DNA of 31,254 bases from a virus, in IMG/VR virus record IMGVR_UViG_3300009159_000209, positions 1 to 31,254 of that record. One strand, written 5' to 3'. Below the pieces are notes generated by a model, which was not told where the DNA came from, did not search any database, and worked only from the letters and a program-made list of their open reading frames with translations. Every line of letters begins with the position of its first letter. The stretch's first letter is position 1. This document shows positions 5,519 to 27,952 of the stretch, piece by piece. A program made the translations under genes and the position numbers.

Positions 5519-7675
5519 ATGGGAATGGATAAAAGACTAGGCCGAGAAGTATCGGACACATATAAAAGAGAATCGTCGGGCCTAAAGTTAGACTCTGGTC
5601 CTTTTATTGGCAAAGTAAAAAATAACTTAGACCCCACACGTGGCGGACGCCTGCAGGTATATATTCCAGACTTAAACACTGGCAATGAAAACGATCCTGA
5701 TAATTGGAGAACAGTAAGTTGGGCAAGCCCATTCTTTGGCACAACCAGTCAACCCGATACCAACAAGCAAAACTCGTTTAAGAAAGTTAGGCACAGCTAC
5801 GGAATGTGGATGGTCCCACCAGACATTGGCAATTTAGTGTTATGTACATTTGTACTGGGCGATCCTAACAGGGGTTTTTGGTTTGCCTGTATTCCAAACC
5901 AGCTTGGGCACCATATGATTCCCGGCATTGCCGGCAGTATCAATGTAGACGCTGGACAGATAAGCGATCCCAAAGTTAAATCCGGTTATAAAAACAATCC
6001 CACAGTGGTCAGTGAGTTTAACGAAAACGACGAAGCAATTGACTGGGCTAATTTTATTAACTTAAAAAAGCCCATACACGAAGAACAACTTAAGATATTA
6101 ATCAAGCAAGGGCTAGATGAAGATTACATCAGAGGAATTATTTCCAGCTCAAGTCAACGCGAAACTCCTAGTTTTGTATTTGGTATAAGCACACCCGGGC
6201 GCCCTGTCAATGATCCTGCAGAAGATCCCAACTATAAAGAAAAGTTACAGTCCGGGGACTTAAAAGAAAGCGACTATGCAGTTTCTGCACGTAAAGGTGG
6301 CCACCAGTTTGTAATGGACGATGGTAACTGGCAAGGCAAAGATCAATTAATAAGATTACGCACTGCCGGCGGGCACCAGATATTAATGAATGACAGCGAA
6401 CGTGTGATGTACATAGCCAACGGTGACGGCAGTGTATGGATGGAGTTCACAGGACCCGGGCATATCAACGTTTACTCTGGATCTGGTATTAACATTAGAA
6501 CACAAGGTGACTTAAACCTACACGCTGATAAGAATATTAATATCAATGCTGGGGAGAATATCAATGTAGCCGCCGGCAAAGAAATGACTACCCTTAGTCC
6601 GACTGTTAAATTTAATGCCACAGGCGAAATGCTGTTGTTTGGCGGTGATGTAAAAGTTGGCAGTTCTGGCCCAATGTCCTTTGTCAGTTCGGGCACAGCC
6701 AATTTGAATTCTGGCGGATCGTTGCATTTAGTGGGCAGTAACATTACGTTAAACGACGGTGGCGGTGCCACAGTTAATAGACCTACTCCGTTAAAATACA
6801 ATAAACTAACTGAAACAGGATACAAAGACGGTAGCTGGGCCTCTGTTGACGGAGGACTAAGCACCATTGTTCCTATTGCACCCGCACACGAACCTTGGGG
6901 ATTGCATAAAGGAACTGTGTTGGCCGGCGTGACCAGTGGCACAGGTATAAATGGGTCAACGTTTGGGGGTACTACCGGAACCGGCAACGGTGTAACGTCC
7001 GGGCCCGCACCAACCAAAGAGATACCAGTAGTGGAATGTAAAGGCGGTGCAATGCCAACAGATCCTGGTCCACAAGCGGCACAAAATGCCGGAGTAAAAA
7101 ATCCAGTTAACAAAAGCTACTTAAACAGAGCCGATAGCCCATCGCCAACAGAAGGTATAGGACCACTAACACCCGAACAAACCAAAGCATTGATAACACA
7201 AATAGGCTGGAACGAAAGCGGTTGGAAGTATAATATTGAAAATCAATACAACTACCTGGGAAAATATCAAACTGGAGCAGCCGCATTGGTAGATCAGGGA
7301 TACATCAAGCGAGATGCTTACCAATTGTACGGCAATAAAGCAGTCAACTATCCAACTAGCTGGACAGGCAAAGACGGAATCGGCAGTAAAGAATCATACC
7401 TGAACAGCGGCGGCGTACAAGAAAAAGTTATGCTCAATCTTTTAAAATCCAACTACAGTACTTTAATAAGAACAGGCGCAATAAAAGAAGGTGATGACCA
7501 GTGTGCCATTGCTGGTATGCTAGCCGCTAGTCACTTAATTGGTGCAGGTGGCGCCAAGAAATGGCGACAAACCGGTGGTGGTCAGGATGCCAATGGCACC
7601 ACAGGCACGGTATATTACAATATGGGACGGTATGCAGTCGATGTACTTGCGGCCCCGGCTACTGCACAGGCTTAA
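5519..7675 (+). CDS. gp5: Baseplate hub spike gp5 with C-terminal lysozyme-like domain
   Basis: 718-residue puncturing spike. An OB-fold N-terminus (about 27-140) has GPFIGKVKNN, GGRLQVYIPD, MVPPDIGNLVLCTFVLGDPN and GFWFACIPN, as in gp5/VgrG proteins. Residues about 250-300 carry the VgrG-like KGGHQFVMDDG and RTAGGHQILMND. The beta-helix needle (about 295-420) follows, with repeated short strands such as INIRTQGDLNLHADKNINI. After a Gly/Thr/Pro-rich linker (about 440-540), a helical domain (about 548-710) contains GWNESGW (E566 is the candidate acid), YNYLGKYQTGAAALVDQGYI and a SHLIGAGGA stretch, resembling lytic-transglycosylase-type lysins. T4 gp5 (575 residues) instead carries its lysozyme between the OB domain and the helix. 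The ATG at 5519 follows the upstream stop by 3 bases; a second in-frame ATG at 5525 is possible. No clear ribosome site is present. Confidence 0.88.
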   Translation: MGMDKRLGREVSDTYKRESSGLKLDSGPFIGKVKNNLDPTRGGRLQVYIPDLNTGNENDPDNWRTVSWASPFFGTTSQPDTNKQNSFKKVRHSYGMWMVPPDIGNLVLCTFVLGDPNRGFWFACIPNQLGHHMIPGIAGSINVDAGQISDPKVKSGYKNNPTVVSEFNENDEAIDWANFINLKKPIHEEQLKILIKQGLDEDYIRGIISSSSQRETPSFVFGISTPGRPVNDPAEDPNYKEKLQSGDLKESDYAVSARKGGHQFVMDDGNWQGKDQLIRLRTAGGHQILMNDSERVMYIANGDGSVWMEFTGPGHINVYSGSGINIRTQGDLNLHADKNININAGENINVAAGKEMTTLSPTVKFNATGEMLLFGGDVKVGSSGPMSFVSSGTANLNSGGSLHLVGSNITLNDGGGATVNRPTPLKYNKLTETGYKDGSWASVDGGLSTIVPIAPAHEPWGLHKGTVLAGVTSGTGINGSTFGGTTGTGNGVTSGPAPTKEIPVVECKGGAMPTDPGPQAAQNAGVKNPVNKSYLNRADSPSPTEGIGPLTPEQTKALITQIGWNESGWKYNIENQYNYLGKYQTGAAALVDQGYIKRDAYQLYGNKAVNYPTSWTGKDGIGSKESYLNSGGVQEKVMLNLLKSNYSTLIRTGAIKEGDDQCAIAGMLAASHLIGAGGAKKWRQTGGGQDANGTTGTVYYNMGRYAVDVLAAPATAQA

Positions 7676-7678
7676 ATA
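7671..7678 (+). promoter_or_regulatory. Possible late promoter box before gp25
   Basis: CTTAAATA spans the gp5 stop codon and ends 4 bases before the gp25 ATG. It keeps the TAAATA core of the other boxes. The spacing is much shorter than the 19-25 bases seen elsewhere, so it would give almost no leader. It may be chance, since gp25 could be read from the upstream transcript. Confidence 0.25.
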
Positions 7679-7682
7679 CTAT

Positions 7683-8057
7683 ATGGCAACATACAAAGGA
7701 TTCAGCACCTATAACAGGGTTAAAAAATTTAAGTTAACTGACTTTGACTTAGTTAAACAAGACCTGTTCAACCATTTTAACATTCGCAAAGGCGAAAAGT
7801 TAATGGATCCCAGCTTTGGAACGATCATATGGGGGTTATTATTTGAACCATTTACAGATGAATTAAAGCAATCTGTAATTAAAGACATCAATACCGTTAT
7901 AAATTATGATCCTAGGATAAACATAGACAACGTGGTAATAGCACAATACGAGTACGGTCTTCAAATTGATTTGGCATTAACTTATGTTCCTTATAACCAA
8001 ACAGAAACATTGCGAATCAAATTTGACCAAGAATCTCAAACTGCTAGTGTACGCTAA
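7683..8057 (+). CDS. gp25: Baseplate wedge protein gp25 (TssE-like)
   Basis: 124 residues (T4 gp25: 132). gp25 joins the wedge to the first sheath ring and is shared by contractile systems, including type VI secretion (TssE). The family signature is visible: GEKLMDPSFGT, then IIWGLLFEPFTDELKQ. The E-P pair of the usual EPR core is present, with Phe in place of Arg. The C-terminal half ends in alternating strands (YGLQIDLALTYVPYN, ETLRIKFDQ). The frame stays open upstream to 7539 inside gp5, but the ATG at 7683 gives the family length and begins MATYKGFSTYN, typical of the N-terminus. It starts 7 bases after the gp5 stop and is followed by a terminator-like hairpin. Confidence 0.92.
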   Translation: MATYKGFSTYNRVKKFKLTDFDLVKQDLFNHFNIRKGEKLMDPSFGTIIWGLLFEPFTDELKQSVIKDINTVINYDPRINIDNVVIAQYEYGLQIDLALTYVPYNQTETLRIKFDQESQTASVR

Positions 8058-8107: not shown

Positions 8108-11100
8108 ATGGCAATCAATACAAGACAAAACAGTTTGCTGGTAGCAGAAAATTGGAAAAAGATCTATCAGACTTTCCAAGAGGCTGACTTCACTAGCTAT
8201 GATTTTGAAACTCTGCGTAAGAGTATGATTGATTACATCAAGCTCTACTACCCAGAAGATTTTAACGATTTTACTGAAAGCAGTGAGTTTATTGCTCTAA
8301 TAGACTTAATTGCTTTTATGGGCCAAGCATTGGCATTCCGTACAGATTTAAATGCTCGCGAAAACTTCATTGACACAGCAGAGCGTAGAGACAGCATTTT
8401 AAAGCTAGCACGATTAATCAGCTATAATCCCAAGCGTAACATTTCTTCTAGCGGTTTCTTAAAGATTGAAACTGTTAGCACCACAGAAACACTCTACGAC
8501 AGCAACGGATTTAATCTAAGCAACTTATCAGTCAACTGGAACGATTTAAGCAACGATAACTGGTTAGAACAGTTTACCACCATTGTTAATGCCGCATTGA
8601 TCAGCAGTCAAGTAATTGGTAAACCTGGAAATACACAGACAATTAACAGTGTCAGAACAGAAGAATACGGACTTAATTTGATCCCTAATGTTCTTGGCGT
8701 GTACAAGTTTCAAAGCGCCATTGAAGGCAACAATTTTGATTTTGAAATAGTAAGCCCTACCAGCATAGCTAAATCATATATCTACGAGCGCACTCCAAGT
8801 AAAAACGCACCGTTTAATATACTGTATCGCAATGACAATTATGGAAACACCAGCAATGACACTGGATTTTTTGTTTACTTTAAACAAGGCGCATTGGCTA
8901 GCCAAGAATTTACCTTAAGTGACAGTATTCCTAATAGAGTGGTTAATTTTAATTTTAGTAATATTAATAACACAGACGTTTGGTTATACAGTTTAGACAG
9001 CAACGGAGAATTAAACGAACTATGGACACAAGTTCCTGCAGTTGGCGGCGTAAACGTAATCTATAACAAGTCTCAAGAGCGTAACCTATATCAAGTTAAC
9101 ACCAAGGCCAACGATCAAATTGATTTGGTATTTGGCGATGGCAGCTTTGCCAACATTCCAACAGGATCTTACAGACTATATTATCGCACCAGTGCAGGCA
9201 TTGGCTACAAAATTACACCTGATGAAATGAAGGGCGTGGCAATATCCTTTAACTATGTCAGTAGAGATAACAGAGTAGAAACTCTTAACCTACGTGCCAG
9301 CTTGCAGTATACTGTAACTAACGCCAGCTCAAGAGAAACTACTGCGGATATTAAACAAAAAGCTCCTCAGCAATACTACACACAAAACCGTATGATCACT
9401 GGAGAGGATTATAACATCCTCCCTTACACAACATTTGGTAACGTACTAAAGGCTAAATCAGTTAACAGAACAAGTTCCGGGGTTAGTCGTTATCTGGACG
9501 TAATTGATCCAACTGCAAAGTATTCTAGTACAAATATTTTTTGCAGTGATGGCTTACTATACCAAGACAACTACATCCGTGCATTTAAATTTAATGCAAA
9601 TAGCAGTGGCGAGATATCTAAAGTTATCAACAATAATATTGTTAAAGATATTATTTTAAGTCAAGAACTACAGCATTTTTACTATGCCAATTATCCTCGC
9701 TTTCCTGGAGATAACACTACCAGTGTATTAAAAAATATAAACTGGAATTTAACAACTTTTGGTAGCAATACTGCCACAGGTTATTTTGTGTTAAATGGAA
9801 CTCCGGCTGTCATTGGCGGCGTTGCTAAAAACGAAACTCGATATCTACGTCAGGGTGCCATTATTAAGTTTGTTCCACGAGCAGGATATTATTTTGATAC
9901 AAGTAATAATATGATTCCTGGTACTGCGCCAATCGGCAGTAATACCAGCATATATGCCTGTGTTACCGTAGTCTACGGTAACGGAACAAACAACGGCACG
10001 GGAAATTTAGATGACGGCACAGGTCCAGTTATACTAAATGTTAAAGTGCCAACCGGCGCAGTGATAGCAGAAGTTATTCCTGTTTTTAAGAATGGCTTTA
10101 CTAGCTTTTACAACGAAGCAATTACTGGACTAATTAAAAGTTTTAAAAACTTTGGTCTGACCTTTGATGTTGAAAAGCAAATTTGGAAAATTATCTCTTC
10201 TGAGAATTTAAATACGTCTGGGCAGTTTAGTTTAACCAATCAAAATGATATTAGTGGAACTGGATTAGATGCCAGCTGGTTAATACGTTTTGAATACAAT
10301 CTTGATGGTTACATTGTCTATTACAGAGGCATCGAATATACCTTTGAAAGTGCCGGCCAAACTGGTTTCTTCTTTGATGATCGTGTCAAGGTGTACGATA
10401 CTAAGACAGGTACTGTGGTCAATGACCAAGTTACAGTACTAAAAACAAATAGACAGCCAGATTCAAATTTTTCATTGGCGCAAGATTGTTCTTGGAAGAT
10501 TTATAAAAATAGCGTTGGCAGCGACGGTTATGTGGACAAGAATAAAATATATGTAACTTTTGCCGATTCAAATAACGATGGAATTCCAGATAATCCAGAT
10601 TTGTTTAAATTGGTAGTTGACCCTACTGTTAATTCTGCAACTAAGTTTGTGTATTTTCAACGTGAAGCAGGATACCAACGTTTTCAAAATTTAATTCCGT
10701 TAGATAATAAAACTATTGTTAGTTTGTATGCCACAGCCAGCGACATTGCCGGAGTCAATAATTTATATCTATCAGGGCAACAATTTTATGCGTATGGCGA
10801 AAATGCTTTCTACAAATTGAATAGTGATAGAACATTGACAGCGATCACCGATTACACTGCTAGGATTGGCAGACAAGAATTGCAATTTCAATATAGACAT
10901 AACAGTCCCGATTACCGTCGCATCAATCCAAGCAATACAAATGTAATTGACCTTTACATATTAACTTCTGCATATGAAAGTGCCTACCGTGTTTGGATAC
11001 AGGATACCAGCGGCGCAACAGAACAACCATATGAGCCAACCACTGACAGTCTAAACGACGAGTTCAGTAAGTTAAACGATATTAAGAGTATCAGCGATAC

Positions 11101-11524
11101 TATAGTCTTTCAGAGTGCCAAGTTTAAACCAATATTTGGTTATAAAGCAAACAACTCGTTACAGGCTACATTTAAAGTGGTAAAGAATCCTTCAATTAGC
11201 ATCAGCGACAACGACATTAAGACTTCAGTTATTAATGCAATTAACAGTTACTTTGATATTACAAACTGGGACTTTGGTGAAACATTTTATTTCTCTGAGT
11301 TAAGCGCATACCTACACAGAGCACTAAGCCCAAATGTTGCCAGTATTATCATTGTGCCTGCTGACGCTGGTACTAGTTTTGGAACATTATATCAAATCAA
11401 TTGCGAGCCACACGAAATTATCGTTAGTGCCGCAACCGTGGAAAATGTTGAAGTTATTACATCGTTGACGGCTAATCAATTGAACCTAAGCGTGGCATCA
11501 TTGAATAAAGAAATTTTAATTTAA
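8108..11524 (+). CDS. gp6: Baseplate wedge protein gp6, enlarged
   Basis: 1138 residues; T4 gp6 has 660. gp6 dimers form the inner ring that ties the wedges together. The N-terminus is the clear match: residues about 18-100 carry FTSYDFETLRKSMIDYIK, YYPEDFNDFTESSEFIALID and DLNARENFIDTAERRDSI, as in gp6/baseplate-J proteins. The C-terminus (about 1035-1120) has the wedge-type ending with YFDITNWDFGETFYFSEL and INCEPHEIIVSA. The extra length lies in the middle (about 450-900), a beta-rich region with DSNNDGIPDNPD (about 820-831), a calcium-binding-type loop. The ATG follows a late box; only a weak GGGT lies before the start. The stop is 10 bases before the giant gene, matching T4 order 25-6-7. 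Confidence 0.92.
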   Translation: MAINTRQNSLLVAENWKKIYQTFQEADFTSYDFETLRKSMIDYIKLYYPEDFNDFTESSEFIALIDLIAFMGQALAFRTDLNARENFIDTAERRDSILKLARLISYNPKRNISSSGFLKIETVSTTETLYDSNGFNLSNLSVNWNDLSNDNWLEQFTTIVNAALISSQVIGKPGNTQTINSVRTEEYGLNLIPNVLGVYKFQSAIEGNNFDFEIVSPTSIAKSYIYERTPSKNAPFNILYRNDNYGNTSNDTGFFVYFKQGALASQEFTLSDSIPNRVVNFNFSNINNTDVWLYSLDSNGELNELWTQVPAVGGVNVIYNKSQERNLYQVNTKANDQIDLVFGDGSFANIPTGSYRLYYRTSAGIGYKITPDEMKGVAISFNYVSRDNRVETLNLRASLQYTVTNASSRETTADIKQKAPQQYYTQNRMITGEDYNILPYTTFGNVLKAKSVNRTSSGVSRYLDVIDPTAKYSSTNIFCSDGLLYQDNYIRAFKFNANSSGEISKVINNNIVKDIILSQELQHFYYANYPRFPGDNTTSVLKNINWNLTTFGSNTATGYFVLNGTPAVIGGVAKNETRYLRQGAIIKFVPRAGYYFDTSNNMIPGTAPIGSNTSIYACVTVVYGNGTNNGTGNLDDGTGPVILNVKVPTGAVIAEVIPVFKNGFTSFYNEAITGLIKSFKNFGLTFDVEKQIWKIISSENLNTSGQFSLTNQNDISGTGLDASWLIRFEYNLDGYIVYYRGIEYTFESAGQTGFFFDDRVKVYDTKTGTVVNDQVTVLKTNRQPDSNFSLAQDCSWKIYKNSVGSDGYVDKNKIYVTFADSNNDGIPDNPDLFKLVVDPTVNSATKFVYFQREAGYQRFQNLIPLDNKTIVSLYATASDIAGVNNLYLSGQQFYAYGENAFYKLNSDRTLTAITDYTARIGRQELQFQYRHNSPDYRRINPSNTNVIDLYILTSAYESAYRVWIQDTSGATEQPYEPTTDSLNDEFSKLNDIKSISDTIVFQSAKFKPIFGYKANNSLQATFKVVKNPSISISDNDIKTSVINAINSYFDITNWDFGETFYFSELSAYLHRALSPNVASIIIVPADAGTSFGTLYQINCEPHEIIVSAATVENVEVITSLTANQLNLSVASLNKEILI

Positions 11525-11534
11525 TTGGTAAAAT

Positions 11535-14500
11535 ATGGCAACCAGACGAACTCTAGATTTTTTACCAACAGTATTCCAAACCGATACTAACAAAAAGTTT
11601 TTACAAGCTACACTGGACCAATTGGTCAGTGAACCAAATTTTGATAGAATTGACGGATATGTTGGCAGACAGTTTGCACCAACTTACAAAGCTAATGATA
11701 GTTACATTAGCGAGGCCAATAAAGATCGCCAAAATTATCAACTTGAGCCCAGCGTATTAATCAAAGGCTCTTCTGGCGAAGCTACCTTTTACAGCAATTA
11801 CAGCGATCTTGCTAATAAGATTTCATACTATGGTGGAGTTACCAACGACCACCGTAGATTGTTTTCCAATGAATATTATACCTATACTGGTTTATTTGAC
11901 TTAGACAAGTTTGTTAACTTTAGCCAGTATTACTGGTTGCCAAATGGACCTAGTCCTATTGCAATCAGCAGTAAGCCTGTGAGCAGTCAAGCTACGTTTA
12001 CATTTACTAGAGACGAAGCTAACAATTCTTATACCGTGGCCGGACAGTCCTCGGGTAATCCTGAATTGGTTGTTGCACGTGGCGGTTTTTATAAATTTGT
12101 ATTGAACCAACCAAACAGCCGTTTCTACATTCAAACCGAGCCTGGTGTATCGGGCGTTAAACGATTGGCGTTGAATACAAGTACCAGAGACATCTATGGC
12201 ATTACAGCCAATGGAGTTGAGACTGGCACCATTGAATTTACTGTGCCATTGAACAATGTGCAAGACCGCTGGTTAAAAATACCATTGGTTGAGAACGTTG
12301 ATTATGCCACAGATGCACTCTATCAAGATCTTGTTGGCACTCCAGTTGACGAATTTAAAATTGACGGAAGCAATATTGGGTTGAATGGCAAGAACGTTAT
12401 TTTCTTAAATCCTGCAGACACTCACAAAGGTGTGTACAGAATAAGATTTGTCAACAATACAATTACATTTGATAAAATTAGAGATATTGATCCTGACAGT
12501 CGAGTATATGTTCGCTCGGGGCTAACATACAGCAACAACGAATATTATAAAACAGAAAACAATCAATGGGAAGCAATTCCTAGTCTAACAGCACAACTTG
12601 ATGTTTTATATTACCAAGATGCAACCAATCCAAATATGTTTGGAAAAATTAAAATCTTGGAAACGCCTGCCGAGCCATTGAATATAGATGAATTGGTCAT
12701 TGGAAAAACACAGTACACTACACAAGATGGTATACAATTTACCAATGGATTGGTAGTTAAGTTTGATGATTCTGTTTTACCGGCCAAGTATCAAAATAAA
12801 ACTTATATTGTTGAAGGCGTTGGCAGTAGCATTACATTAGTGGATTTTTCTTTACTGGTATTTCCTGAACCCAATGCACAAGTTAATACAGTTCCCTGGG
12901 ATGCTGTGCCCTATAGCTCCGGTACATTAGATGAACCGTTCCGTGGTCCGGCAATACCAGATTACTTTACCAGCAATCGTGCCAGCATTGATTTAAACGC
13001 CTGGGCAAGACATAACCGTTGGTTCCACTCGGATGTAATTGAATTGAGTGCCAAAGCGAATGGGTCAACGCCGTTGTTTGACCAGGCAGTTCGTGCTCAA
13101 CGTCCAATCATTGAAGCCGAACCTAATGTTCAACTGTTTCAATTTGGTCGAGTTGGCAAGCGTCCAGTAAACCACATTGATGTAACAACCACTGATGCAT
13201 TTAATCAAGTACAACATAGTAAATCTCTTTTAGTCAATGGAGTACGACTAAAAGAATTTGATCGTATATTATTTGCCAACGATAAAGATCCATTGGTACG
13301 CAGTCAAATTTATACAGTACGTTACCAATTACAAAACGAACCCAGTTATCGTAGTGTTTATGATGGCACCGGCCGTGGAAGTATTACAAGACGCATTGAC
13401 GGCCGCAATGATTATGTGGAAGTAATTGGCAGTGGCACAGACTTCACGTCGGAATTAGATGCTGGCAGTACACTATATGACGCAGAAGGCAACTACTTAG
13501 GTACAGTAACACAGGTTATGTCCAGTACTAGTTTGGGTCTAATAGACACACCCAATACGTTTACGGGAGTTAGTGTTTTCCAATATAGAAATCCCAAGAT
13601 ACAACTTACGCTCGGTGAGGCAGACGATGCTGTAGACAAGTTTGATTGCGTCGTTGCCATAGACGGCGAAAGCAAAGGAAAGACATATTGGTACAATGGA
13701 GACACCTGGCAATTAGCGCAACAAAAAAGTGAAACTAATCAAATTTTAAAATTTGATGCTTTTGACAATACTGATACAAGTTTTGGATCGTATAACGGAA
13801 CAAACTTTACAGGCACTAACATTTTTAGTTATAAGACTGGCTCGGGCAAAATAGACGCAGTGCTAGGACAAGCATTGGCCTATGAAAACACAACAAATAA
13901 CACTGCCGATTTAGTATTCGATAACAATTTTGATAACGATACATTTACCTACGTTGACGGAACACAACTGCTGACTAAGTCCATCAATTCGGGATACATT
14001 AGACAAAACGTCAATGGAACTGAATTTGTTAAACGTAATGTTTGGGCAAAAGTTGTTGAGGATACTAAACAATATCAAATCTTTAGTAAAACTTATACTG
14101 GAAAAACCAATCACATTGAAATTGACGTGTTGCCAGAATCTGAATTAGAGGTTCCAACAACAAAAGTTTTTGTCAACAACAAGTTATTGGAAAGCAGCCA
14201 ATACAGTTTTCAGAAAGTTGGAAAACGTAACACGGTAAAAGTTGTTGCTAGTAAATTAGCAGTTGATGATAAGATAGATGTTTTAATTTACAGTAAGTCT
14301 GCATCTAAACTTGGATATTATCAGGTACCGGCTAACCTTGAATACAATAGCCAGAATAAATCTTTTTCCAAGTTAACACTGGGACAAATTCGAAATCACT
14401 TGACTGCCACCGGACAAAATACAGATAAGGTGTCGGGATTGGTGCCTGGGCCAAGCAATCTTAGAGATTTAAATATTGCCAGACAGGGCGGCAATATTCT

Positions 14501-17500
14501 ACAACACAGCGCCCCAACAATTTACGCCAGCTTATTTTTAATTGATAAGCAGGCCAATTATGTCAATGGCATTGAGTACGCACGTAGAGAATATACAAAA
14601 TTTAAAAATAAATTCATTGAACTGGCCAGCACATTGCCTGGCTTGGATTTAGATAATGCTGGCGCCAGTGTAGACATAATATTGTCTAATATCAACGCCA
14701 TAAAAAATCCTAGCTTTAGTTGGCACTACAGCGATATGGTTCCATACGGCGATTGCCGTATCCTGACATATAAAATTAAAGATACAAATAGCTATCAATT
14801 TAAAATTGATTCAATTTTCAATGACAAACAGATACAGAACAGAGCTGTCTTGGTTTATCTAAACAATCAACAGTTAATAAAAGACATTGACTATACATTT
14901 GATCAAACCCGTCCTGCAGTAATTTTAAATGAACGCTTCTATCTAACCAATGAAGATGTAATTGAAATTAGAGACTATAAAAACACCGACGGCTGCTACA
15001 TACCAGAAACTCCAACCAAACTTGGATTACACCCTAAATTTAAACCAACGGTTTATCTAGACGACACGTACAGAGAAGCAGTGGAAGTTATTCAGGGACA
15101 CGATGGAAGTTTAACTCCTGTGTTTGGCGACTACAGAGATAGTTTCCTACTGGAACTAGAGTTACGTATATACAACAACATCAAAATTGATTGCAAAGTT
15201 CACCCTACTAGATACAGCCCCGGCCAATTTAGAACAATTGATTACACTCCACTGGAATGGAACAAAGTTTTAAACAGTAACTTTTTAAAGTGGGTGGGAC
15301 AAAATAAATTAGACTTCATTGCCAATGATTGGTTTGATCCTAACGATCCATTTACCTATAACTACAGATACAGTAAAGATAGTCTTAGCAACCAAAATTT
15401 AAATGGGTACTGGAGAGGGATTTATCGTTACTTCTACGACACTGACAGGCCTCACATAGCACCTTGGGAAATGCTAGGATTTAGCGAGCAACCAACTTGG
15501 TGGGAAAACATATATGGTCCTGCACCATATACCAAATATAACACACAATTGTGGTCTGACCTTGAAAATGGCGTAGTTGCCAGCGGCACACTGGCCGGGA
15601 TTGACTCTGCTTATATTAGGCCAGGATTAAGTAAAATTATCCCAGTGGATGAAAACGGTGGCTTACTGCATCCGTTGGCCATTGGTATTTCTACAGAATT
15701 TAATAGTGTACAAGCATCTAGTGGATATCAGATTGGTGACGGAGCGCCAATAGAAGCTGCCTGGCAGAGAACCAGCGAGTATCCGTATGCACTGCAACGT
15801 TCGTTGGCATTGACTCGCCCTGCCTGGTACTTTGGCACATTATTTGATGTCAATGGTTATGCCAAAGATGCGGCATTAGATCAGTATACTGTTGCCAATA
15901 CCAGTCGACGTGTTGCGCCCAAGGACATTGTAATCAACGGCGAAACAGTCAACAATCAAATAACACGGGCCAGCGGATACATAAATTGGATCACTGATTA
16001 TATGACCAGCTTGGGTCTGGACGCTCGCTCTAAACTTAGAAACAATTTAGACAACCTAACAGTTGAGTTAAGCTACAGAGTTGGTGGATTTACCGATAAG
16101 AACTATATTACAGTTTTGGCTGAACAATATAGTCCAACCAGTACCAATGCCAGCGTAGTGGTACCAAACGAAAGCTATTCGTTAATTCTTAATAAGAATG
16201 TACCTAAAGAGCGTGTTGCCTATAGTGCCGTAATTATAGAAAAAACTAGCACAGGCTTTGCTGTCAGCGGCTACAATCTTAACTATCCTTATTTTACAGT
16301 AGTGCCTAGTGACACTGCCGGAGAAAGTTATGCTATAACGCAAGACGGTCAAGCGGCAATGATCTATAAAGAATATAGAAAACAAAAGTTGGTAATTCCA
16401 TATGGTCACGAGTTTACCACTAAACAACAAGTAGTTGACTTCTTGGTAAGCCACCAACGCTACCTACTATCTCAGGGATTTATCTTTGATGAATTTGATG
16501 ATACACTGGCTAAAACCAAAGATTGGGTATTGAGCGCATACGAATTTCTAGGTTGGACTATCCAGGGATGGAAGCCGGGTAGTATATTAATTTTAAGTCC
16601 AGTAAGTACAAAAATTAAACTAATAACAGCCGATGGTGTAGTTGATGAAATTACCAATGAGAGTAATGGCACTAAAATATTAGATCCAAACTTCTCCGTA
16701 ATACGTCCGGTAAACTTTACCAGTGTACGTGAACCTGATCTGTTTACATTGGATACTATCAGTGGGCAAACTATTGCGTTCCTAGAGCTAGACATAGTTC
16801 AATACGAGCACGTATTGCGCTTTGACAACAGTACAGTTTTCAATGATATCATTTATCAACCTGAGTCAGGTAGCCGACAATTTAGATTAAAGATAGTTGG
16901 AAGCAAAACTGCCAATTGGACAGGAGCATTAAATCCTCCTGGATTTATATACAACAATCCAACGGTGCCCGAATGGAGACCAGGCAAAGATTATCTCAAA
17001 GGTGACATTGTTACATATAAGAGCCAATACTATACTGCGGCACAAAAGATCTCTGCACAAACAACTTTTGTACAAAGTTATTGGAAACAAATTGAAAAGA
17101 CACAGATTAAAACAGGGTTGTTGTCTAACTTTGCCAACAATGCTGGAAAATTTGTTGACGTCTATGATCCAGACAGTAGTCTACTAGATCATCAAATGGC
17201 ACGTATGAGTGCCGGATTAATAGGATTCCGTCAGAGAGCATATCTTGATGACTTTTATCTCGACACAACTACGCAATCTAAATTCTATCAAGGGTTTATT
17301 AAACAAAAAGGTACTAAGCAGGCCATTGATGCAATGCTTGGCGCACAATTTGGCGATTTACAAAACAACATACAGTTGCACGAAGAATGGGGTGTGCGGG
17401 TTGGAGAATACGGTGCATTATCCAGCAACCAAACAGTTGAAATTGTATTAAAAGAATCAGAGATTAAAAATAATCCCACAGGCATTACCATTGAAGAAAC

Positions 17501-20500
17501 ACCTGTTGAGGGACTAATCAATGTAACGGATAAGCAACTATGGTCCAGACCCCTTGACACCAAACCTATACGGTTTTTAAATCGTGTATCCAACGATAGG
17601 CAAGAAAATGATTTACAAACTGCTGGCTATGTTAACATAAATGATGTTGACGCTACATTGTTTAGTTCTGGCAATTATCAATTGCTCACACCAACTACAA
17701 AAAACGTTGGCAGCGGTTACATAGTTTGGGTGGCTAAAGATCATAATAAAGAGTGGAATGTTTATCGTGCCACAGAAACAGATGCCTCTGTATTAAGCAT
17801 TGAATACAGCTTGGATCAAGCAGGCAAAGTAACCACCAAGAATCCACATAAGTTAGAAGCTAACCAGACTGTGGTAATTAGAAACTTAAACAATGACTAC
17901 GACGGATTTTATATTATAAAGAGCGTTTTAGATAGACGCTCGTTTACCATTGGCTTAACTGAAGAAAAATCTAAAGCACTAAAACAAAATCCAGTAACTG
18001 GCGCCGGTATCCTATTCGTACTTGACAGCGTAAGATTTACTTACCCTGGATTGGTTAATGATTACACTCCGCCGCACGGTTGGAAAGACGGAGATATGGT
18101 CTGGGTAGACAATGCCGATGGTATGAACCGTTGGGCCGTTTATGAAAAAGACAGTCGCTGGCACTACATAGAACCAGAAGCTATTACTTTGGGCAGTTAC
18201 AAACCGGGTGGTAATTATGGTACAAATGTCAGAATTGATGACAACAATAGATTTGTTATAGTTAGCTCACCTGGCGCGGCACAAGCAGCCGGTAGACTAC
18301 ACGTATTTGATTATTACTACGGACAAAAAGAACGTGCAGTATTAAGCGGTGGTATTGAAGACACTGAAACATTGGGTACAAGTCTAGACATTGCACAGAA
18401 CATTATTGTTGCTGGCGCCCCAGATAGCAGAGTTCAAACTGGGTTAGTAATGATTTACGCTTTCAGCGAAGATTTATATTTTGAGCCAGTGCAGGTATTA
18501 ACATCTCCGGGTACAGGGGAAAATCCTGTGGCCACAGAACAAAACCTATTAGGCACACAAGTTGGCGCACGTTATGGTTTCAGTTTGGCACAGAGCAGAG
18601 ATTCTAATATTCTTTACGTTGGCAGCCCTGGCACCAATGAAGTTTTCATATATGCATATCACAGTGAAATTGAAACAAGATTTGATAGATTTAGTTTAGC
18701 CCAAGCGGCTACGGGGTGTACTTTACCCTACGAACTCAATGACGAGCGCAGTATAGCAGTATATCTACACGGTATTAAGCCAACTGCTGGTCAGTCCAAC
18801 ATTGGGCACAAGTTGTTAATACTAGGCGAAGATTATTCTGTTGTTGACAATACGGTGGTGTTTATGAGTCCACTAGTCACAGAAGACTACGACTCCTTTG
18901 TATTAGAAGACAATGAAGAAATATACTTTGGCAGCGAAGATTCTACCGGCAGTAGAGGGTATATTGTAATTCGTCGTCGTGGCTATTATGAATATGCTGG
19001 AAAAATTGCCGGTAATACCAATAGTAAATTTGGATACAGTGTTGCTACAGGCAACACCGGGGCATACGTAGTTATTGGCGCACCCGATCAAACCATAGAT
19101 AATATTCCGTATGCTGGTCAAGCTAGCATATACGCCACACGCATTAAGTGGATCGAGTCTAATGGCGTAATGAGACCCGATGCAGAATATGCCCTAGTAG
19201 AAAAGCTCACAGCAGAAACACCAACCTACAAAGCAAACTTTGGATATAGCGTTGAGATGGGAGTCACTGACTCTGTTGTTTTTGTTGGTGCTCCGGGATT
19301 CGCTACAGCAGCCTATGACGGAGGCACTGTATATAGATATATAAACTACGGAAAAGAATTTGGTACAATAGTTGGATCTGTCATTGACCCGGTTGTAGCA
19401 GCCGGGGATCTGATGGTTATCAACGAAATAGATGTACTCTTTACTGGCGGCGATTTAACTAAGATTATTAAAGATATTAACAATAAAAAAATAATTGGAG
19501 TTCAAGCATCTGCCACTGCCGATCGTCGATTGGTAATAAGTTCCATATTGCAAGCCAGTAACAATAAGCTAAACATTATTCCAACAGGTAATATTGTTGT
19601 CAAACTGGGAATTAAAATATTTGAAACTACACAAAAAATTAAGAGACCATCAACCACCGAAGGTGATAATTTTGGATCTCTTGTACGAGTAGACAATAGC
19701 GGAAAGACTTTAACAATTTCCAGTAGAACTGGTACAATCTACGATTATGCCACATACGACAACGAACAAACTACCTATGATGGAAATATAACTAGGTTTG
19801 TTGAAATAGTAAAAGGCAGCGGTGCTGTCTATATGTACAACTTGTTTGACAATCCAAACGATGCACCGGATCCATACGGTAATTATGTATTTGGTGAGGA
19901 ATTTAATGCGCCAGGAGTTGCACTTGGTGACAGGTTTGGTATTGGAGTAGATTTTAACAATAGTCAATTGTGGATTGGTGCTGCCTTCAATGACACCAAG
20001 GGCCAGAATGCAGGACAAGTCTACAAATATACAAACGAATCAGGCAACCCAAGTTGGTATAAAAAACGTGCCAAGTCTAAGAATGTAGACGTCAGTGGTA
20101 TTAACGGAATTAGCCTTTATAAGAAAACCACAGGCGAATTTATAACCAGCTTGGATTATATAGATCCGGTCAAAGGAAAGAACCTGGGCATTGCTGAACA
20201 AGACATTAGTTACAAAACCAGCAGAGACCCAGCAGTATACAACAACGGTTCTAAAGATATTGATTTCTACTGGAGTACACAGCAAGTTGGAGAAACCTGG
20301 TGGAATTTAGATCGTCTTCGATATATTGACTACGAACAGGAAGAATTATCCTACAGATTAAACAACTGGGGCCGTTTGTTTACAGGCAGCAAAGTAGAAG
20401 TCTATCAATGGATTGAAAGTGGTTACTTACCTAGCGAATATGTGGCCAATGGGCAGCCTGGGACTCCGCTAGCAGAAGACAATTCTTCTTATACAATGAC

Positions 20501-23500
20501 TACCTACGTTGATGTAGACACAGGTATTATCAAAACTCGCTACTATTACTGGGTCCGCGGAATCAGCACAGTACCAGTAAATTCTAGTAGAAAATTAAGT
20601 GCATTGGCCTTAGAGAATGTGCTGTTGAACCCACTGGCACAAAACTTGCCATATGCCGCTATCTTAGATGATCATAGTATTGGTATTTTTAATTGCGTTG
20701 GTTACTTAAACAGCAACGACACTATTTTGAGAATTGATTACGATAAAGAATTAAACAATAATTTAATTCATAGCGAATACGAATTAATTCAAGAGAACAA
20801 CCCGGATAGTGATCTGCCAGACCGTATATACAACAAACTAGTAGACAGTATCAGTGGCAGAGATAAAGAAAGACAGCGGGTACCAGACGTTAAACTACGC
20901 CCTAGTCAACAAGTTGGCTTAGAGTTGCGCCCCCGTCAAACCATTGTTTTAAACAGATATGCCGCGCTAAAGAATCTAGTAGAATATTGCAATCGTGTTT
21001 TTGCAGAAAAGACTATCGCTTACAAATTACAAAACAGCAAACCTTTTGTAAACAACTATTTCTTCCAAAAGGATCCGTTGCCCAGTAACGCTCATTATGA
21101 TTACCTGGTAGAGAATCTGACAGAGCGTGATTATGTAAAAACAGATGAAGGTATTCGGGTCTGTGTTAAGCACGACAGCAACTTCTTAGGTCTGTGGACA
21201 ATATACGAATACACTGATGGCGCTTATAAAGTAATTAAAAACCAAACGTTTGATACAACAATGGTTTGGGACTATGTAAATTGGTATGCCATTGACTTTG
21301 ATTCTAATACAAAAATAACGTACACTGTTGATTATGCTAAAGATTTAGAAAAGTTATATTTAAAAGCAGGTGACATTGTTAAAATAACCAATGGTAGCAA
21401 TGGTTACGAAATCTATCGCTATACCAGCAGTGATACCAGCGACTTGGTAGCAGTGGAAAACGGTACCGTTGCGCTAAGTTCTAAGCTATGGGACATTGAA
21501 GCCAATGATGTTGGATTTGACAGTAACGGTTTAGACAGCGTCGAGTTTGACCTGGACTACAGCACAGAAATTAGAAACGTCATCAACGGATTGCGAGAAA
21601 CAATTTTTGTTGACGATCTAATAGACCATAGAAATAAAGTACTATTCTCTTTAATTAATTATATCTATAGCGAACAGAAACAGGTTGATTGGATTTTTAA
21701 AACTAGTTTTGTTAGTGTTACGCACCAAATTAAACAATTAGATCAGTATCCAAACTTTAGTAAAGACAATCAAACCTATTACGAAGATTATATCAAAGAA
21801 GTTAAGCCTTACAGAACTAAGTTACGTGATTACAGATTGAAATATACTGGCACCGATACTGCCACCCTGAACGTTACAGACTTTGACATACCAGGACACT
21901 GGGATTCTGAACTTGGCCGCTTCCGTAGTCCCAGTGGAGAGATACCTGAAAAGGACTCAAAACTTTGGTTGAAGCCTGAATATCAGGATTGGGCCAACAA
22001 CTTTACATATGGCATTGAAACAATCACAATGTCCAGCACCGGTATAGGATACAATCAGCCTCCGGTGATTACCATTGTTTCCAATGGTGACAAAGGAGCG
22101 GGCGCAGTAGCAGAAGCAGTATTAGATTCAACCACCGGTGCAATAATTAAAATTAACGTTGTTAAGTCGGGTCAGGGATATAAAAATACCCCGTTGATAG
22201 TTATCAGTGGTGATGGCGCCGGGGCAGTGGCAGTGGCAACATTGGCCAATAACAAAATTCGTAGTATTAAAACTACATTGAAATTTGATAGAACGTCTTA
22301 CACTACATCTGTTCGCGAGTGGGTACCTTTTGCTATGTTTGGCATTGGTGACTTGGTTGCATACAAGGGTGTTGGATACAAAGCTATATCCAATGTACCA
22401 TCATTGGATAAATTTGATCCTAAGTATTTTGTTACAGTCAAGGACACAGAGCTGGTTAATGCCAATGATAGAATTGCTGTAAAATACCAACCTACTTCTT
22501 ATCAGATTCAACGAGATGTAAAAATTGACGGATCAATTGACTTAACTAGACTTATCCCCGGCACAGTATACGATGCACACAAAATTGACAGTACCATAGC
22601 TGTTAAGTCAGACACTGACTTTGACGTAATATTAGCTGAAAATAGTAATGAAATTCAACTTGGATTTGATACAAACATATCCGGTGGTGCTTTTTACGAT
22701 GAAGAAAAATCATATGCTCCTGAAGAATTAGTGCCAGGGGTAATGTACGATCATTTGGCTATGACGGTGATTACTGATATCACAGTTGATTCTCAAACAT
22801 CTCAGGTTGCCTATAGAATTAGCAAAGATATAAACAACAATGTTGATTACGAAGCTGTTGCCGGAATAGCAAGCACAACACTGGCACAAGATCTAGCCTG
22901 GGACGATACAAAAATATATGTAACAAGTTTAGATGGGTTAAGTGTTCCTAATCCAAGTAAAGGCAAGCCTTGTTATGTTTATGTCAATGGCGAAAAAATT
23001 AGTTATTACCAAATTGATCAGCAAGAGAACTATTTGCACCAAATTCGGCGCGGCATAGGCGGCACAGGAACACCACTGGTACACCAAGCGGATTCTAAGT
23101 TGTACAATGCCAGCTCGGATTTACGAATCCCAAATGTCATTGAAGATAAAAAAGACAACTACAAGTTTAATTCTAGCGACGCTAGATACACACCGTCTTT
23201 TACAGTCTTGAACAATCAAGATTTTGTAACCCGTGCGCTAACATTGTTTATCTCAGAAAACCAGCTGACTTACGGCAAAGACTACATTATTACATTAACT
23301 CCTAAGCCAAATACAACACAAGCTACCGCAAATGTTGTTTTTACAGACTCTGCTAAACAGCGATATGTTGAGGGACTGATCATTCGTGCTGTGTACACAG
23401 AGCACACAATATGGTTGAATCCGGGCATAAATTCGGTTACTGACGGCACAGGACTAGACGGTAGTACCACCGATACAGCTGAGTTTATTAAGGGATTTTC

Positions 23501-23510
23501 CTACTTTTAA
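11535..23510 (+). CDS. Giant multidomain virion protein (possible gp7 wedge-initiator counterpart)
   Basis: 3991 residues in one open frame, about four times T4 gp7 (1032). The N-terminus (RRTLDFLPTVFQTDTNKKFL, then EPNFDRIDGYVGR) is of a type I recall after gp6 in marine T4-like phages. Visible modules: a carbohydrate-binding-like unit near 1813-1856 (WRPGKDYLKGDIVTYKSQYY); FG-GAP-like blades near 2225-2836; a conserved helical block near 3330-3420 with HRNKVLFSLINYIYSEQKQ; paired Gly-rich 'GxGY..PPVI.I' repeats near 3501-3577; a second carbohydrate-binding-like unit near 3592-3637; and near 3788-3869 a strand-rich unit with VNGEKISYY and RGIGGTGTPLVHQ. It likely forms an outer baseplate or side-fibre body. 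The gp7 link rests on position after gp6 only. There is no ribosome site of note; it is probably coupled to gp6, 10 bases upstream. Confidence 0.8.
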   Translation: MATRRTLDFLPTVFQTDTNKKFLQATLDQLVSEPNFDRIDGYVGRQFAPTYKANDSYISEANKDRQNYQLEPSVLIKGSSGEATFYSNYSDLANKISYYGGVTNDHRRLFSNEYYTYTGLFDLDKFVNFSQYYWLPNGPSPIAISSKPVSSQATFTFTRDEANNSYTVAGQSSGNPELVVARGGFYKFVLNQPNSRFYIQTEPGVSGVKRLALNTSTRDIYGITANGVETGTIEFTVPLNNVQDRWLKIPLVENVDYATDALYQDLVGTPVDEFKIDGSNIGLNGKNVIFLNPADTHKGVYRIRFVNNTITFDKIRDIDPDSRVYVRSGLTYSNNEYYKTENNQWEAIPSLTAQLDVLYYQDATNPNMFGKIKILETPAEPLNIDELVIGKTQYTTQDGIQFTNGLVVKFDDSVLPAKYQNKTYIVEGVGSSITLVDFSLLVFPEPNAQVNTVPWDAVPYSSGTLDEPFRGPAIPDYFTSNRASIDLNAWARHNRWFHSDVIELSAKANGSTPLFDQAVRAQRPIIEAEPNVQLFQFGRVGKRPVNHIDVTTTDAFNQVQHSKSLLVNGVRLKEFDRILFANDKDPLVRSQIYTVRYQLQNEPSYRSVYDGTGRGSITRRIDGRNDYVEVIGSGTDFTSELDAGSTLYDAEGNYLGTVTQVMSSTSLGLIDTPNTFTGVSVFQYRNPKIQLTLGEADDAVDKFDCVVAIDGESKGKTYWYNGDTWQLAQQKSETNQILKFDAFDNTDTSFGSYNGTNFTGTNIFSYKTGSGKIDAVLGQALAYENTTNNTADLVFDNNFDNDTFTYVDGTQLLTKSINSGYIRQNVNGTEFVKRNVWAKVVEDTKQYQIFSKTYTGKTNHIEIDVLPESELEVPTTKVFVNNKLLESSQYSFQKVGKRNTVKVVASKLAVDDKIDVLIYSKSASKLGYYQVPANLEYNSQNKSFSKLTLGQIRNHLTATGQNTDKVSGLVPGPSNLRDLNIARQGGNILQHSAPTIYASLFLIDKQANYVNGIEYARREYTKFKNKFIELASTLPGLDLDNAGASVDIILSNINAIKNPSFSWHYSDMVPYGDCRILTYKIKDTNSYQFKIDSIFNDKQIQNRAVLVYLNNQQLIKDIDYTFDQTRPAVILNERFYLTNEDVIEIRDYKNTDGCYIPETPTKLGLHPKFKPTVYLDDTYREAVEVIQGHDGSLTPVFGDYRDSFLLELELRIYNNIKIDCKVHPTRYSPGQFRTIDYTPLEWNKVLNSNFLKWVGQNKLDFIANDWFDPNDPFTYNYRYSKDSLSNQNLNGYWRGIYRYFYDTDRPHIAPWEMLGFSEQPTWWENIYGPAPYTKYNTQLWSDLENGVVASGTLAGIDSAYIRPGLSKIIPVDENGGLLHPLAIGISTEFNSVQASSGYQIGDGAPIEAAWQRTSEYPYALQRSLALTRPAWYFGTLFDVNGYAKDAALDQYTVANTSRRVAPKDIVINGETVNNQITRASGYINWITDYMTSLGLDARSKLRNNLDNLTVELSYRVGGFTDKNYITVLAEQYSPTSTNASVVVPNESYSLILNKNVPKERVAYSAVIIEKTSTGFAVSGYNLNYPYFTVVPSDTAGESYAITQDGQAAMIYKEYRKQKLVIPYGHEFTTKQQVVDFLVSHQRYLLSQGFIFDEFDDTLAKTKDWVLSAYEFLGWTIQGWKPGSILILSPVSTKIKLITADGVVDEITNESNGTKILDPNFSVIRPVNFTSVREPDLFTLDTISGQTIAFLELDIVQYEHVLRFDNSTVFNDIIYQPESGSRQFRLKIVGSKTANWTGALNPPGFIYNNPTVPEWRPGKDYLKGDIVTYKSQYYTAAQKISAQTTFVQSYWKQIEKTQIKTGLLSNFANNAGKFVDVYDPDSSLLDHQMARMSAGLIGFRQRAYLDDFYLDTTTQSKFYQGFIKQKGTKQAIDAMLGAQFGDLQNNIQLHEEWGVRVGEYGALSSNQTVEIVLKESEIKNNPTGITIEETPVEGLINVTDKQLWSRPLDTKPIRFLNRVSNDRQENDLQTAGYVNINDVDATLFSSGNYQLLTPTTKNVGSGYIVWVAKDHNKEWNVYRATETDASVLSIEYSLDQAGKVTTKNPHKLEANQTVVIRNLNNDYDGFYIIKSVLDRRSFTIGLTEEKSKALKQNPVTGAGILFVLDSVRFTYPGLVNDYTPPHGWKDGDMVWVDNADGMNRWAVYEKDSRWHYIEPEAITLGSYKPGGNYGTNVRIDDNNRFVIVSSPGAAQAAGRLHVFDYYYGQKERAVLSGGIEDTETLGTSLDIAQNIIVAGAPDSRVQTGLVMIYAFSEDLYFEPVQVLTSPGTGENPVATEQNLLGTQVGARYGFSLAQSRDSNILYVGSPGTNEVFIYAYHSEIETRFDRFSLAQAATGCTLPYELNDERSIAVYLHGIKPTAGQSNIGHKLLILGEDYSVVDNTVVFMSPLVTEDYDSFVLEDNEEIYFGSEDSTGSRGYIVIRRRGYYEYAGKIAGNTNSKFGYSVATGNTGAYVVIGAPDQTIDNIPYAGQASIYATRIKWIESNGVMRPDAEYALVEKLTAETPTYKANFGYSVEMGVTDSVVFVGAPGFATAAYDGGTVYRYINYGKEFGTIVGSVIDPVVAAGDLMVINEIDVLFTGGDLTKIIKDINNKKIIGVQASATADRRLVISSILQASNNKLNIIPTGNIVVKLGIKIFETTQKIKRPSTTEGDNFGSLVRVDNSGKTLTISSRTGTIYDYATYDNEQTTYDGNITRFVEIVKGSGAVYMYNLFDNPNDAPDPYGNYVFGEEFNAPGVALGDRFGIGVDFNNSQLWIGAAFNDTKGQNAGQVYKYTNESGNPSWYKKRAKSKNVDVSGINGISLYKKTTGEFITSLDYIDPVKGKNLGIAEQDISYKTSRDPAVYNNGSKDIDFYWSTQQVGETWWNLDRLRYIDYEQEELSYRLNNWGRLFTGSKVEVYQWIESGYLPSEYVANGQPGTPLAEDNSSYTMTTYVDVDTGIIKTRYYYWVRGISTVPVNSSRKLSALALENVLLNPLAQNLPYAAILDDHSIGIFNCVGYLNSNDTILRIDYDKELNNNLIHSEYELIQENNPDSDLPDRIYNKLVDSISGRDKERQRVPDVKLRPSQQVGLELRPRQTIVLNRYAALKNLVEYCNRVFAEKTIAYKLQNSKPFVNNYFFQKDPLPSNAHYDYLVENLTERDYVKTDEGIRVCVKHDSNFLGLWTIYEYTDGAYKVIKNQTFDTTMVWDYVNWYAIDFDSNTKITYTVDYAKDLEKLYLKAGDIVKITNGSNGYEIYRYTSSDTSDLVAVENGTVALSSKLWDIEANDVGFDSNGLDSVEFDLDYSTEIRNVINGLRETIFVDDLIDHRNKVLFSLINYIYSEQKQVDWIFKTSFVSVTHQIKQLDQYPNFSKDNQTYYEDYIKEVKPYRTKLRDYRLKYTGTDTATLNVTDFDIPGHWDSELGRFRSPSGEIPEKDSKLWLKPEYQDWANNFTYGIETITMSSTGIGYNQPPVITIVSNGDKGAGAVAEAVLDSTTGAIIKINVVKSGQGYKNTPLIVISGDGAGAVAVATLANNKIRSIKTTLKFDRTSYTTSVREWVPFAMFGIGDLVAYKGVGYKAISNVPSLDKFDPKYFVTVKDTELVNANDRIAVKYQPTSYQIQRDVKIDGSIDLTRLIPGTVYDAHKIDSTIAVKSDTDFDVILAENSNEIQLGFDTNISGGAFYDEEKSYAPEELVPGVMYDHLAMTVITDITVDSQTSQVAYRISKDINNNVDYEAVAGIASTTLAQDLAWDDTKIYVTSLDGLSVPNPSKGKPCYVYVNGEKISYYQIDQQENYLHQIRRGIGGTGTPLVHQADSKLYNASSDLRIPNVIEDKKDNYKFNSSDARYTPSFTVLNNQDFVTRALTLFISENQLTYGKDYIITLTPKPNTTQATANVVFTDSAKQRYVEGLIIRAVYTEHTIWLNPGINSVTDGTGLDGSTTDTAEFIKGFSYF
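18207..20042 (+). repeat. Seven FG-GAP-like repeats within the giant protein
   Basis: Protein-level repeats (residues about 2225-2836). Each has '(F/Y)G.SV......(V/I).VGAP', then 'G.V..Y': NYGTNVRIDD..SSPG; LGTSLDIAQNIIVAGAPD; YGFSLAQS..LYVGSPG; FGYSVATG..VVIGAPD; FGYSVEMG..VFVGAPG; FGSLVRVD..ISSRTG; FGIGVDFN..LWIGAAF. Starts near 18207, 18375, 18565, 19018, 19230, 19657 and 19918. Known FG-GAP repeats (as in integrin alpha) are propeller blades; seven copies suit one seven-bladed propeller, with insertions after blades 3 and 5. Confidence 0.75.
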
Positions 23511-27628: not shown

Positions 27629-27952
27629 ATGACCCCAGATGATCTCAAATCCCTTGCGGACTTTAATTTTGAACGCTCAATACATTTAAAAAATATACGC
27701 GAGTCTGCACACGCTAAATTAAATGTAACTTACAACGGTGGAACGTTTACAGCCACTGTTGACCTAATAGGATTTTTAAATGTATGGCCCGATGAAACTG
27801 TAATCATCAAAGACATTTACCTCAATCCTATAGAAGTAAAACGCACAGAACTTTTATCGCTGATTATCCCTGCCTACAAAAATAGTATGCAATGGTGGCT
27901 TGGCGAGTTTGACTCTGGCAATCGTACTAGCTGGCTTGGTCCCGATGTCTAA
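27629..27952 (+). CDS. Small hypothetical protein
   Basis: 107 residues, family not recognised. It begins with a charged helix (DDLKSLADFNFERSIHLKNI) and has two strand segments (AKLNVTYNGGTFTATVDLIG, DETVIIKDIYLNPIEV), then a helix ending in NSMQWWLGEFDSGN. There is no signal peptide or membrane span. It is the first gene after the hairpin and overlaps the next gene by 8 bases, so it is probably translated with the glycosyltransferase-like cassette. Its length and compact layout suggest a small structural or accessory protein, but nothing in it proves a role. Confidence 0.6.
   Translation: MTPDDLKSLADFNFERSIHLKNIRESAHAKLNVTYNGGTFTATVDLIGFLNVWPDETVIIKDIYLNPIEVKRTELLSLIIPAYKNSMQWWLGEFDSGNRTSWLGPDV

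Follow-up and report, generated by a model that had tools for sequence, protein, structure and literature searches.

In integrin alpha chains, a propeller of seven FG-GAP blades carries DxDxDG calcium-binding loops, and the chain also possesses thigh and calf domains, a membrane anchor and a beta-chain partner. The integrin propeller has a further domain nested in it (the alpha-I domain), and the phage propeller described here likewise holds nested domains. Propellers are found in phages as well. They are described in the nozzles of T7 and SU10, the K1F endosialidase and a phAss-1 protein (PMC10607447), and in the tip of the T7 fibre (PMC11821841). Among the open-access papers found on FG-GAP and phages, no title or abstract opening reports an FG-GAP domain in a phage. 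The fold itself is not new in viruses, because phage and giant-virus models in BFVD match it and some of them are named FG-GAP repeat. The four phage entries (E 2.2e-32 to 3.6e-14) are Caudovirales A0A6J5L8L4 (piece 3) and A0A6J5S3H5 ('FG-GAP repeat'), the 'hemagglutinin' A0A2L0UZX4 of Agrobacterium phage Atu_ph07 and H6WG31 of cyanophage S-TIM5, and they are joined by several giant viruses. A0A6J5S3H5, A0A2L0UZX4 and H6WG31 differ from the giant protein studied here in their length (393-473 residues). The fourth, A0A6J5L8L4, seems to be a fragment of a long protein, possibly a member of the giant family. Neither the propeller of our locus nor a compact propeller from a relative (L061) found a match at 1e-3 by tblastn against 50,697 phage records. 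The protein that surrounds the propeller is better represented, since the jumbo phages PA5oct/Paride, RaK2, GAP32, Atu_ph07, Phosso, SCTP-2, Vibrio 2.275.O and XacN1 share its conserved middle. Because propellers have already been described in other phage parts, what is new here is the host protein and the graft site with its optional use, and what is known is the fold.

A giant virion protein encoded next to a baseplate wedge gene

We analyzed a stretch of DNA of 31,254 bases (the window) from an environmental T4-like phage, which is identical to IMG/VR contig 3300010885_011343 at 12 of 12 sampled points with a constant offset; a 612-residue query matched the same contig at 100% over its whole length. 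On the plus strand, the window encodes a baseplate hub or tail lysozyme-like protein (5519..7675; phrog_13211, 7.9e-43), a baseplate wedge subunit that we take to be gp25-like (7539..8057; phrog_261 and phrog_43), a gp6-like baseplate wedge subunit (8108..11524; phrog_10646, E=0, and phrog_219, 9.4e-23, both 'baseplate wedge subunit') and the propeller host, a giant virion protein of 3991 residues (11535..23510), which matches the virion structural protein family phrog_10938 with 1056 bits (E=0). Tail-fibre-like genes lie 3' of the giant gene, and 3' of these the ORFs 26532-27596 and 27900-28778 had no PHROG match at 1e-3.

The giant ORF stands directly 3' of the gp6-like wedge gene, so that in the order of T4 it occupies the position of gene 7, right after gp6. 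The gene just 5' of the giant gene is also annotated as baseplate wedge in six of eight inspected jumbo-phage records, the preceding genes of SCTP-2 and Vibrio 2.275.O being without this annotation. The sequence-only reading had assigned the propeller to a baseplate protein, and the gene order agrees with that assignment. Here, 'gp7' is a position label only, because the giant family does not align with gp7 (hhalign probability ≤ 0.2 against six gp7 sequences and 0.2 against T4 gp7 alone), and we dropped homology to gp7. In pelagimyophages, gp7 is reportedly absent and replaced by VrlC (PMC7029224). The VrlC of HTVC008M, the sole VrlC protein compared, did not match the giant family (hhalign E 0.85, hmmsearch E 10), and VrlC homology was likewise dropped. 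The wedge assignment therefore rests on gene order and on the names of the neighbours, as neither gp7 nor the tested VrlC shows homology in sequence. A neighbour of VrlC in HTVC008M, gp055, matches the giant-family profile by hmmsearch (5.7e-8, best columns 2727-2935) and, by hhalign, at 47.3% (1.9e-4).

The conserved middle part of the giant protein matches 60 phage records, and its profile (A1) found one weak match among PDB sequences, chitinase A1 (E 0.053). We also noticed a weak CBM_5_12 chitin-binding match at residues 1813-1852 (16971-17090; 23.7 bits, under the cut-off of 26.2). This match is weak in Paride too, and a neighbour protein of Vibrio phage 2.275.O carries that name.

Seven FG-GAP blades and a predicted integrin-type propeller

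The FG-GAP repeats occupy 18207-20042, which corresponds to residues 2225-2836 of ORF 11535-23510. The blade HMM used for their detection was trained on 28 blades that we cut by hand from four short relatives, with the window excluded. Within the domain, this HMM gave seven ordered matches above 4 bits (24.4 to 4.8 bits), starting at residues 2225, 2281, 2345, 2494, 2566, 2708 and 2798. The corresponding cores, all on the plus strand, are blade 1 (18207..18311, 11.3 bits), blade 2 (18375..18470, 13.5 bits), blade 3 (18567..18656, 24.4 bits), blade 4 (19014..19088, 18.2 bits), blade 5 (19230..19346, 18.0 bits), blade 6 together with part of its long B-C loop (19656..19778, 6.7 bits) and blade 7 (19926..20048, 4.8 bits). 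None of 2000 shuffles of the domain contained more than one match above 4 bits, and the best shuffle match (9.1 bits) exceeds the scores of the two weakest blades, 6 and 7. One off-site match of 4.3 bits falls in the same giant protein, at residues 1101-1127. The Pfam family FG-GAP_2 (PF14312) matched the full ORF at 3.3e-8 (34.0 bits) and the domain region at 6.9e-11 (42.6 bits), against a curated cut-off of 23. In the 93,878-base record, all three FG-GAP_2 matches fall within the giant ORF, and hmmsearch with the compact-propeller and blade HMMs over ORFs of at least 120 codons and under 1400 residues found no separate propeller protein elsewhere in the loci. The sole match in a separate ORF is a piece of the giant protein of L252, whose frame, through a sequence error or a real break, is interrupted within the propeller near position 6017.

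To model the fold, we ran AlphaFold2 on residues 2110-2900 with an alignment (A2) of the window and 44 relatives that have both anchors and 350-1000 residues; L029, L033 and L036, and then L017, L023 and L058, were removed, and L055 was excluded by its length. Every one of the 45 members has an FG-GAP_2 match at E ≤ 0.1 (best 2e-31), a count that speaks of chosen propeller bearers because the propeller-free L023, L029 and L055 were left out. The resulting model (pLDDT 83.1, pTM 0.83) is a seven-bladed propeller. In a Foldseek search of the PDB, ranks 1-22 are integrin heads (best E 5.4e-12) and other propeller complexes, such as Elongator and the SSU processome, appear from rank 23 on. The 50 matches listed by VIA are all integrin entries by title (Z 36.0-39.4), aligned over 343-371 residues at an rmsd of 2.6-3.2 Å and covering model residues 98-735. 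From this alignment to integrin heads, the propeller is predicted to be closed. The A2 profile found 24 PDB sequences at E ≤ 0.01, all of them integrin alpha (best 6.1e-14), and the window domain alone found no PDB match at E ≤ 1 by phmmer, so the integrins are reached by the family profile only. As drawn from the model, VIA and FG-GAP_2, the predicted propeller with its two nested domains spans 18150..20054 on the plus strand (residues 2206-2840); the fold, at approximately residues 2207-2844, is slightly wider than the repeat range.

Most of what the sequence-only reading had claimed for this region held up. Its count of seven blades is borne out by the seven ordered matches against at most one per shuffle, its proposal of a seven-bladed propeller of the integrin alpha type is supported by AlphaFold2, Foldseek, VIA and the A2 profile, and two of the checks that it had suggested, an FG-GAP profile search and a structure prediction, gave a PF14312 match above the curated cut-off and a model that aligns to integrin heads. 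The motif on which the count was based fared less well. (F/Y)G..V does occur seven times in residues 2200-2850, but just five of these start blades; the other two are FGTIV (2609, in insertion 2) and YGNYV (2781), and blades 2 (LGTSL, 2280) and 3 (YGFSL, 2347) start without the motif.

The window propeller thus shares with the integrin alpha propeller (alphaL, alphaM, alphaX, alphaV, alpha4, alpha5 and others) the seven FG-GAP blades and a fold match at Z scores of 36-39, and integrin alpha chains are the sole PDB sequences that the family profile found at E ≤ 0.01. It differs in having no DxDxDG calcium motif in the window, a motif which is also rare among 123 related propellers (8/123 with a loose pattern, 5/123 with a strict one), and in sitting in a hairpin of a phage protein, the surrounding chain matching a phage virion family. 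Its nested domains differ as well: they resemble other families and are placed between strands C and D in blades 3 and 5. Compared with FG-GAP_2 proteins, the window propeller matches the family, yet it is nested in a 3991-residue virion protein and holds two extra domains.

The propeller is placed in the turn of a conserved hairpin

The propeller is bordered by two short strands of the host protein, WAVYEK (18132..18149, plus strand; residues 2200-2205; DSSP E92-96, which are residues 2201-2205) and WYKKRA (20055..20072, plus strand; residues 2841-2846; DSSP E732-737). In relatives, the corresponding flanks join in a hairpin (W.VY ... W...R). Inspected by eye, the two halves of this hairpin are separated by a propeller in the window and L061, and by unrelated sequence in L023 and L029. 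Nothing separates them in L055 or, unlike in the window, in the four of the eight jumbo phages whose site was legible, namely Paride, SCTP-2, Atu_ph07 and Phosso; there the hairpin is bare. A model of the bare site of L055 shows two strands (115-119 and 124-129) connected by a four-residue turn; the model is poor overall (pLDDT 64.5, pTM 0.48), with values of ~73-76 around the hairpin.

For a survey of the site, we used 248 loci, which are all those fetched except L001, L002 and L091-L096. Among them, 182 had both flanks in order, 50 had the C flank only (mostly distant relatives, kept outside the site classes) and 16 had neither in that form. After merging identical flank pairs and counting blade matches above 3 bits, 142 distinct loci remained, of which 123 hold a propeller, 13 are bare (≤ 4 residues between the flank matches), three are short, two contain a YHYH domain and one (L006) is mis-anchored, its hairpin being bare by eye; these counts are not frequencies in nature, because the three scans kept the best 80 of 592, 594 and 578 relatives. 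The 123 propellers have five to eight blade matches each, with seven in 66. The YHYH domain (PF14240; L023:6387-8444, 3.4e-29, and L029:3059-4426, 6.2e-31) shares the site of the propeller, but belongs to a different domain family. Taken together, sequence comparison and models indicate a conserved beta-hairpin whose turn holds the grafted propeller.

Several relatives carry further sequence near the site. The propeller regions of L021, L025, L030 and L042 are far longer than the rest: the flanks stand 1226-1465 residues apart, and some 400 residues or more precede the first or second blade match. In L005 and L006 (Phosso and Atu_ph07), a long stretch with GxGY..PP.V-type repeats is seen by eye, ~1540 residues before the bare hairpin, and window residues 3454-3588 match several places in this stretch by BLAST. 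In L004 (SCTP-2), a LamG/concanavalin-like stretch is seen by eye 5' of the bare hairpin, where Pfam gave no match at E ≤ 0.1.

Two putative domains are nested in the propeller

Relative to the median of the compact propellers, the window is longer by 102 residues at the step after blade 3, by 88 at the step after blade 5 and by no more than 24 elsewhere, which confirms the two long insertions that had been placed there. Among 46 non-compact loci with exactly seven blade matches, of which the window is one, an excess of 30 residues or more follows blade 3 in 35, blade 4 in 35 and blade 5 in 35, against 1, 4, 5 and 3 of the 46 at the other four steps; the window is without the blade-4 insertion. 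Both insertions lie between strands C and D, as judged by eye from the comparison with L061 and the DSSP string. Insertion 1 (18663..18983, plus strand, borders approximate; ~107 residues, in blade 3) is a putative T7-fibre-head-like domain, and a profile built from 35 blade-3 insertions, that of the window included, matches residues 2367-2498 (2.5e-17). Insertion 2 (19350..19619, plus strand, borders approximate; ~90 residues, in blade 5) is a putative Flagellin_IN-like domain and contains DINNKKIIGVQASA at residues 2647-2660; a profile built from 35 blade-5 insertions, again including that of the window, matches residues 2592-2710 (1e-38). By hhalign, the insertions of blades 3 and 4 are related (96.7%), and those of blades 3 and 5 are not (0.4%). 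Flagellin_IN (PF07196) matches five of the 45 A2 members at E ≤ 0.1 (best 2.3e-4) and, in four of ten rescanned members, falls between blades 5 and 6, below the curated cut-off. The Phage_T7_tail N-terminal domain (PF03906) matches three of the 45, also at E ≤ 0.1 (best 1.8e-4), and was located in the blade-4 insertion of L074 at 16.2 bits (cut-off 25.2). The window itself is unmatched by either family. By these sequence comparisons, the insertions look like recurrent small domains rather than loops.

We compared conservation across 30 loci bearing all three insertions, taking 122 pairs with a C-flank identity of 50-90%. The window stands outside this comparison because it lacks the blade-4 insertion. 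The mean identities are 36.2% for the blade-3 insertion, the least conserved part, 43.6% for the blade-4 insertion, 52.8% for the blade-5 insertion, 36.9-61.2% for the blade cores, 50.5% for the N flank and 59.0% for the C flank, the last being favoured because the pairs were chosen by it. Blades 3-6 reach 46.8-61.2%, and blades 1, 2 and 7 are, with insertion 1, among the least conserved parts. The sequence-only reading had likened a stretch of the second insertion to a flagellin-type turn and had regarded both insertions as possible variable loops that carry specificity. The flagellin remark finds an echo in the weak PF07196 matches of five of 45 alignment members, but not in the window itself. 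Insertion 2 is about as conserved as the flanks, which weakens the idea of a specificity loop there; insertion 1, being less conserved, stays a candidate specificity element.

Proposed gain and loss of the propeller, and its divergence

We mapped the site states onto a tree built quickly from the downstream flank (141 rows, L006 being omitted as mis-anchored). The four states need seven changes; the propeller state alone needs six, three of them forced by well-supported branches. Five of the bare hairpins fall within a clade of 33 rows, the other 28 of which are propellers. The simplest reading of these sequences is that the propeller was gained once and then lost repeatedly, with one replacement, the direction of gain and loss being inferred because the tree has a midpoint root.

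The propeller appears to change faster than its surroundings. Among 22 compact relatives, its identity falls below that of the flanks in 228 of 231 pairs (mean 46.5 vs 56.7%). Loop variability differs weakly between the two faces of the propeller (p = 0.047), and we dropped face-specific hypervariability on account of this weak difference. In 59 longer propellers, distances of the propeller correlate with those of the flanks at rho 0.47-0.55, against 0.71-0.78 between the flanks. In 20 compact propellers, all distance correlations are low (0.07-0.42), and an earlier test on 22 gave a rho of 0.19, reached by 147 of 2000 permutations. Since the correlations are low throughout the compact set, exchange of propellers between relatives by recombination is unsupported.

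Possible role of the propeller

We consider it most likely, with a probability of roughly 0.6, that the closed seven-bladed FG-GAP propeller in the hairpin turn is an optional, outward-facing module that binds the host surface. According to this model, which builds on the repeats, fold, graft site, optional use and nested domains as read from the sequences or predicted, the chain would exit strand 1 of the hairpin, build the propeller, with the two small domains nested in the C-D turns of blades 3 and 5, and re-enter strand 2. Since some relatives have a bare hairpin or hold another module there, the propeller would be an optional outward-facing accessory that does not belong to the wedge core. 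We infer its exposure, orientation and ligand binding as follows: the conserved part (blades 3-6 and the Flagellin_IN-like insertion) may face the virion, the variable part (blades 1, 2, 7 and insertion 1) may face out, and the most likely job would be to bind a molecule of the host-cell surface as the baseplate lands. Contact with the host cell is favoured because the domain is optional, has the ligand-binding fold of integrins and changes faster than its flanks. Several results weigh against the model: the calcium motif of integrins is missing, insertion 2 is conserved, loop variability differs weakly between the faces, the bare-site model of L055 is poor, the wedge assignment comes from gene order and neighbour names, and the window sequence by itself matches no PDB entry at E ≤ 1.

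The strongest competitor, less probable though far from negligible, is that the propeller is a docking platform within the virion, which holds a tail fibre, a tailspike or a neighbouring wedge and never touches the cell. An inner contact fits blades 3-6 and insertion 2, whose conservation is roughly at the level of the flanks, as would be expected for a fixed protein partner, and there are tail-fibre-like genes 3' of the giant gene. However, the hairpin is bare in 13 and occupied by YHYH in two of the 142 distinct relatives from the best-80 scans, which makes a universal docking role unlikely, and conservation is at or near its lowest in blades 1, 2 and 7 and in insertion 1.

It is improbable that the propeller is an enzyme acting on the cell surface, such as a seven-bladed lactonase-like protein or another hydrolase. 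Lactonase (PF10282) matches four of the 45 A2 members weakly (best 2.1e-5), and YHYH, which takes the same site in two relatives, is a predicted metal-dependent hydrolase (PMC7824862), but FG-GAP_2 matches all 45 and does so more strongly (best 2e-31), and both the structure and the profile searches point to integrin alpha. That the repeats are a chance or low-complexity pattern with no propeller fold can hardly be entertained, even if (F/Y)G..V fits two places where no blade starts and the best shuffle match outscores blades 6 and 7: we dropped this explanation because of the seven ordered matches, which no shuffle approached, and the Pfam match and the structure model with its own matches speak against it too.

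A broader and more tentative suggestion concerns the site itself, one to which we give somewhat less than even odds. The hairpin turn may be a standing socket of the baseplate that receives a propeller, YHYH or nothing, so that the exchange of modules would retune the first contact with the cell. With similar reserve, the socket may extend over a large group of environmental T4-like phages, the nested domains being plugged in turn into the propeller. The finding puts an integrin-type fold, which binds ligands elsewhere, in what appears to be a core protein of a contractile baseplate, and it points to one constant position at which phages in nature have a whole domain, do without it or hold another in its stead. 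Should the propeller serve in adhesion, it would give these phages a means of host contact apart from the tail fibres, and nature would offer in it a template for the display of domains on baseplates; and if the socket is real, these phages would retune host contact inside a core structural protein, beyond the tail fibres alone.
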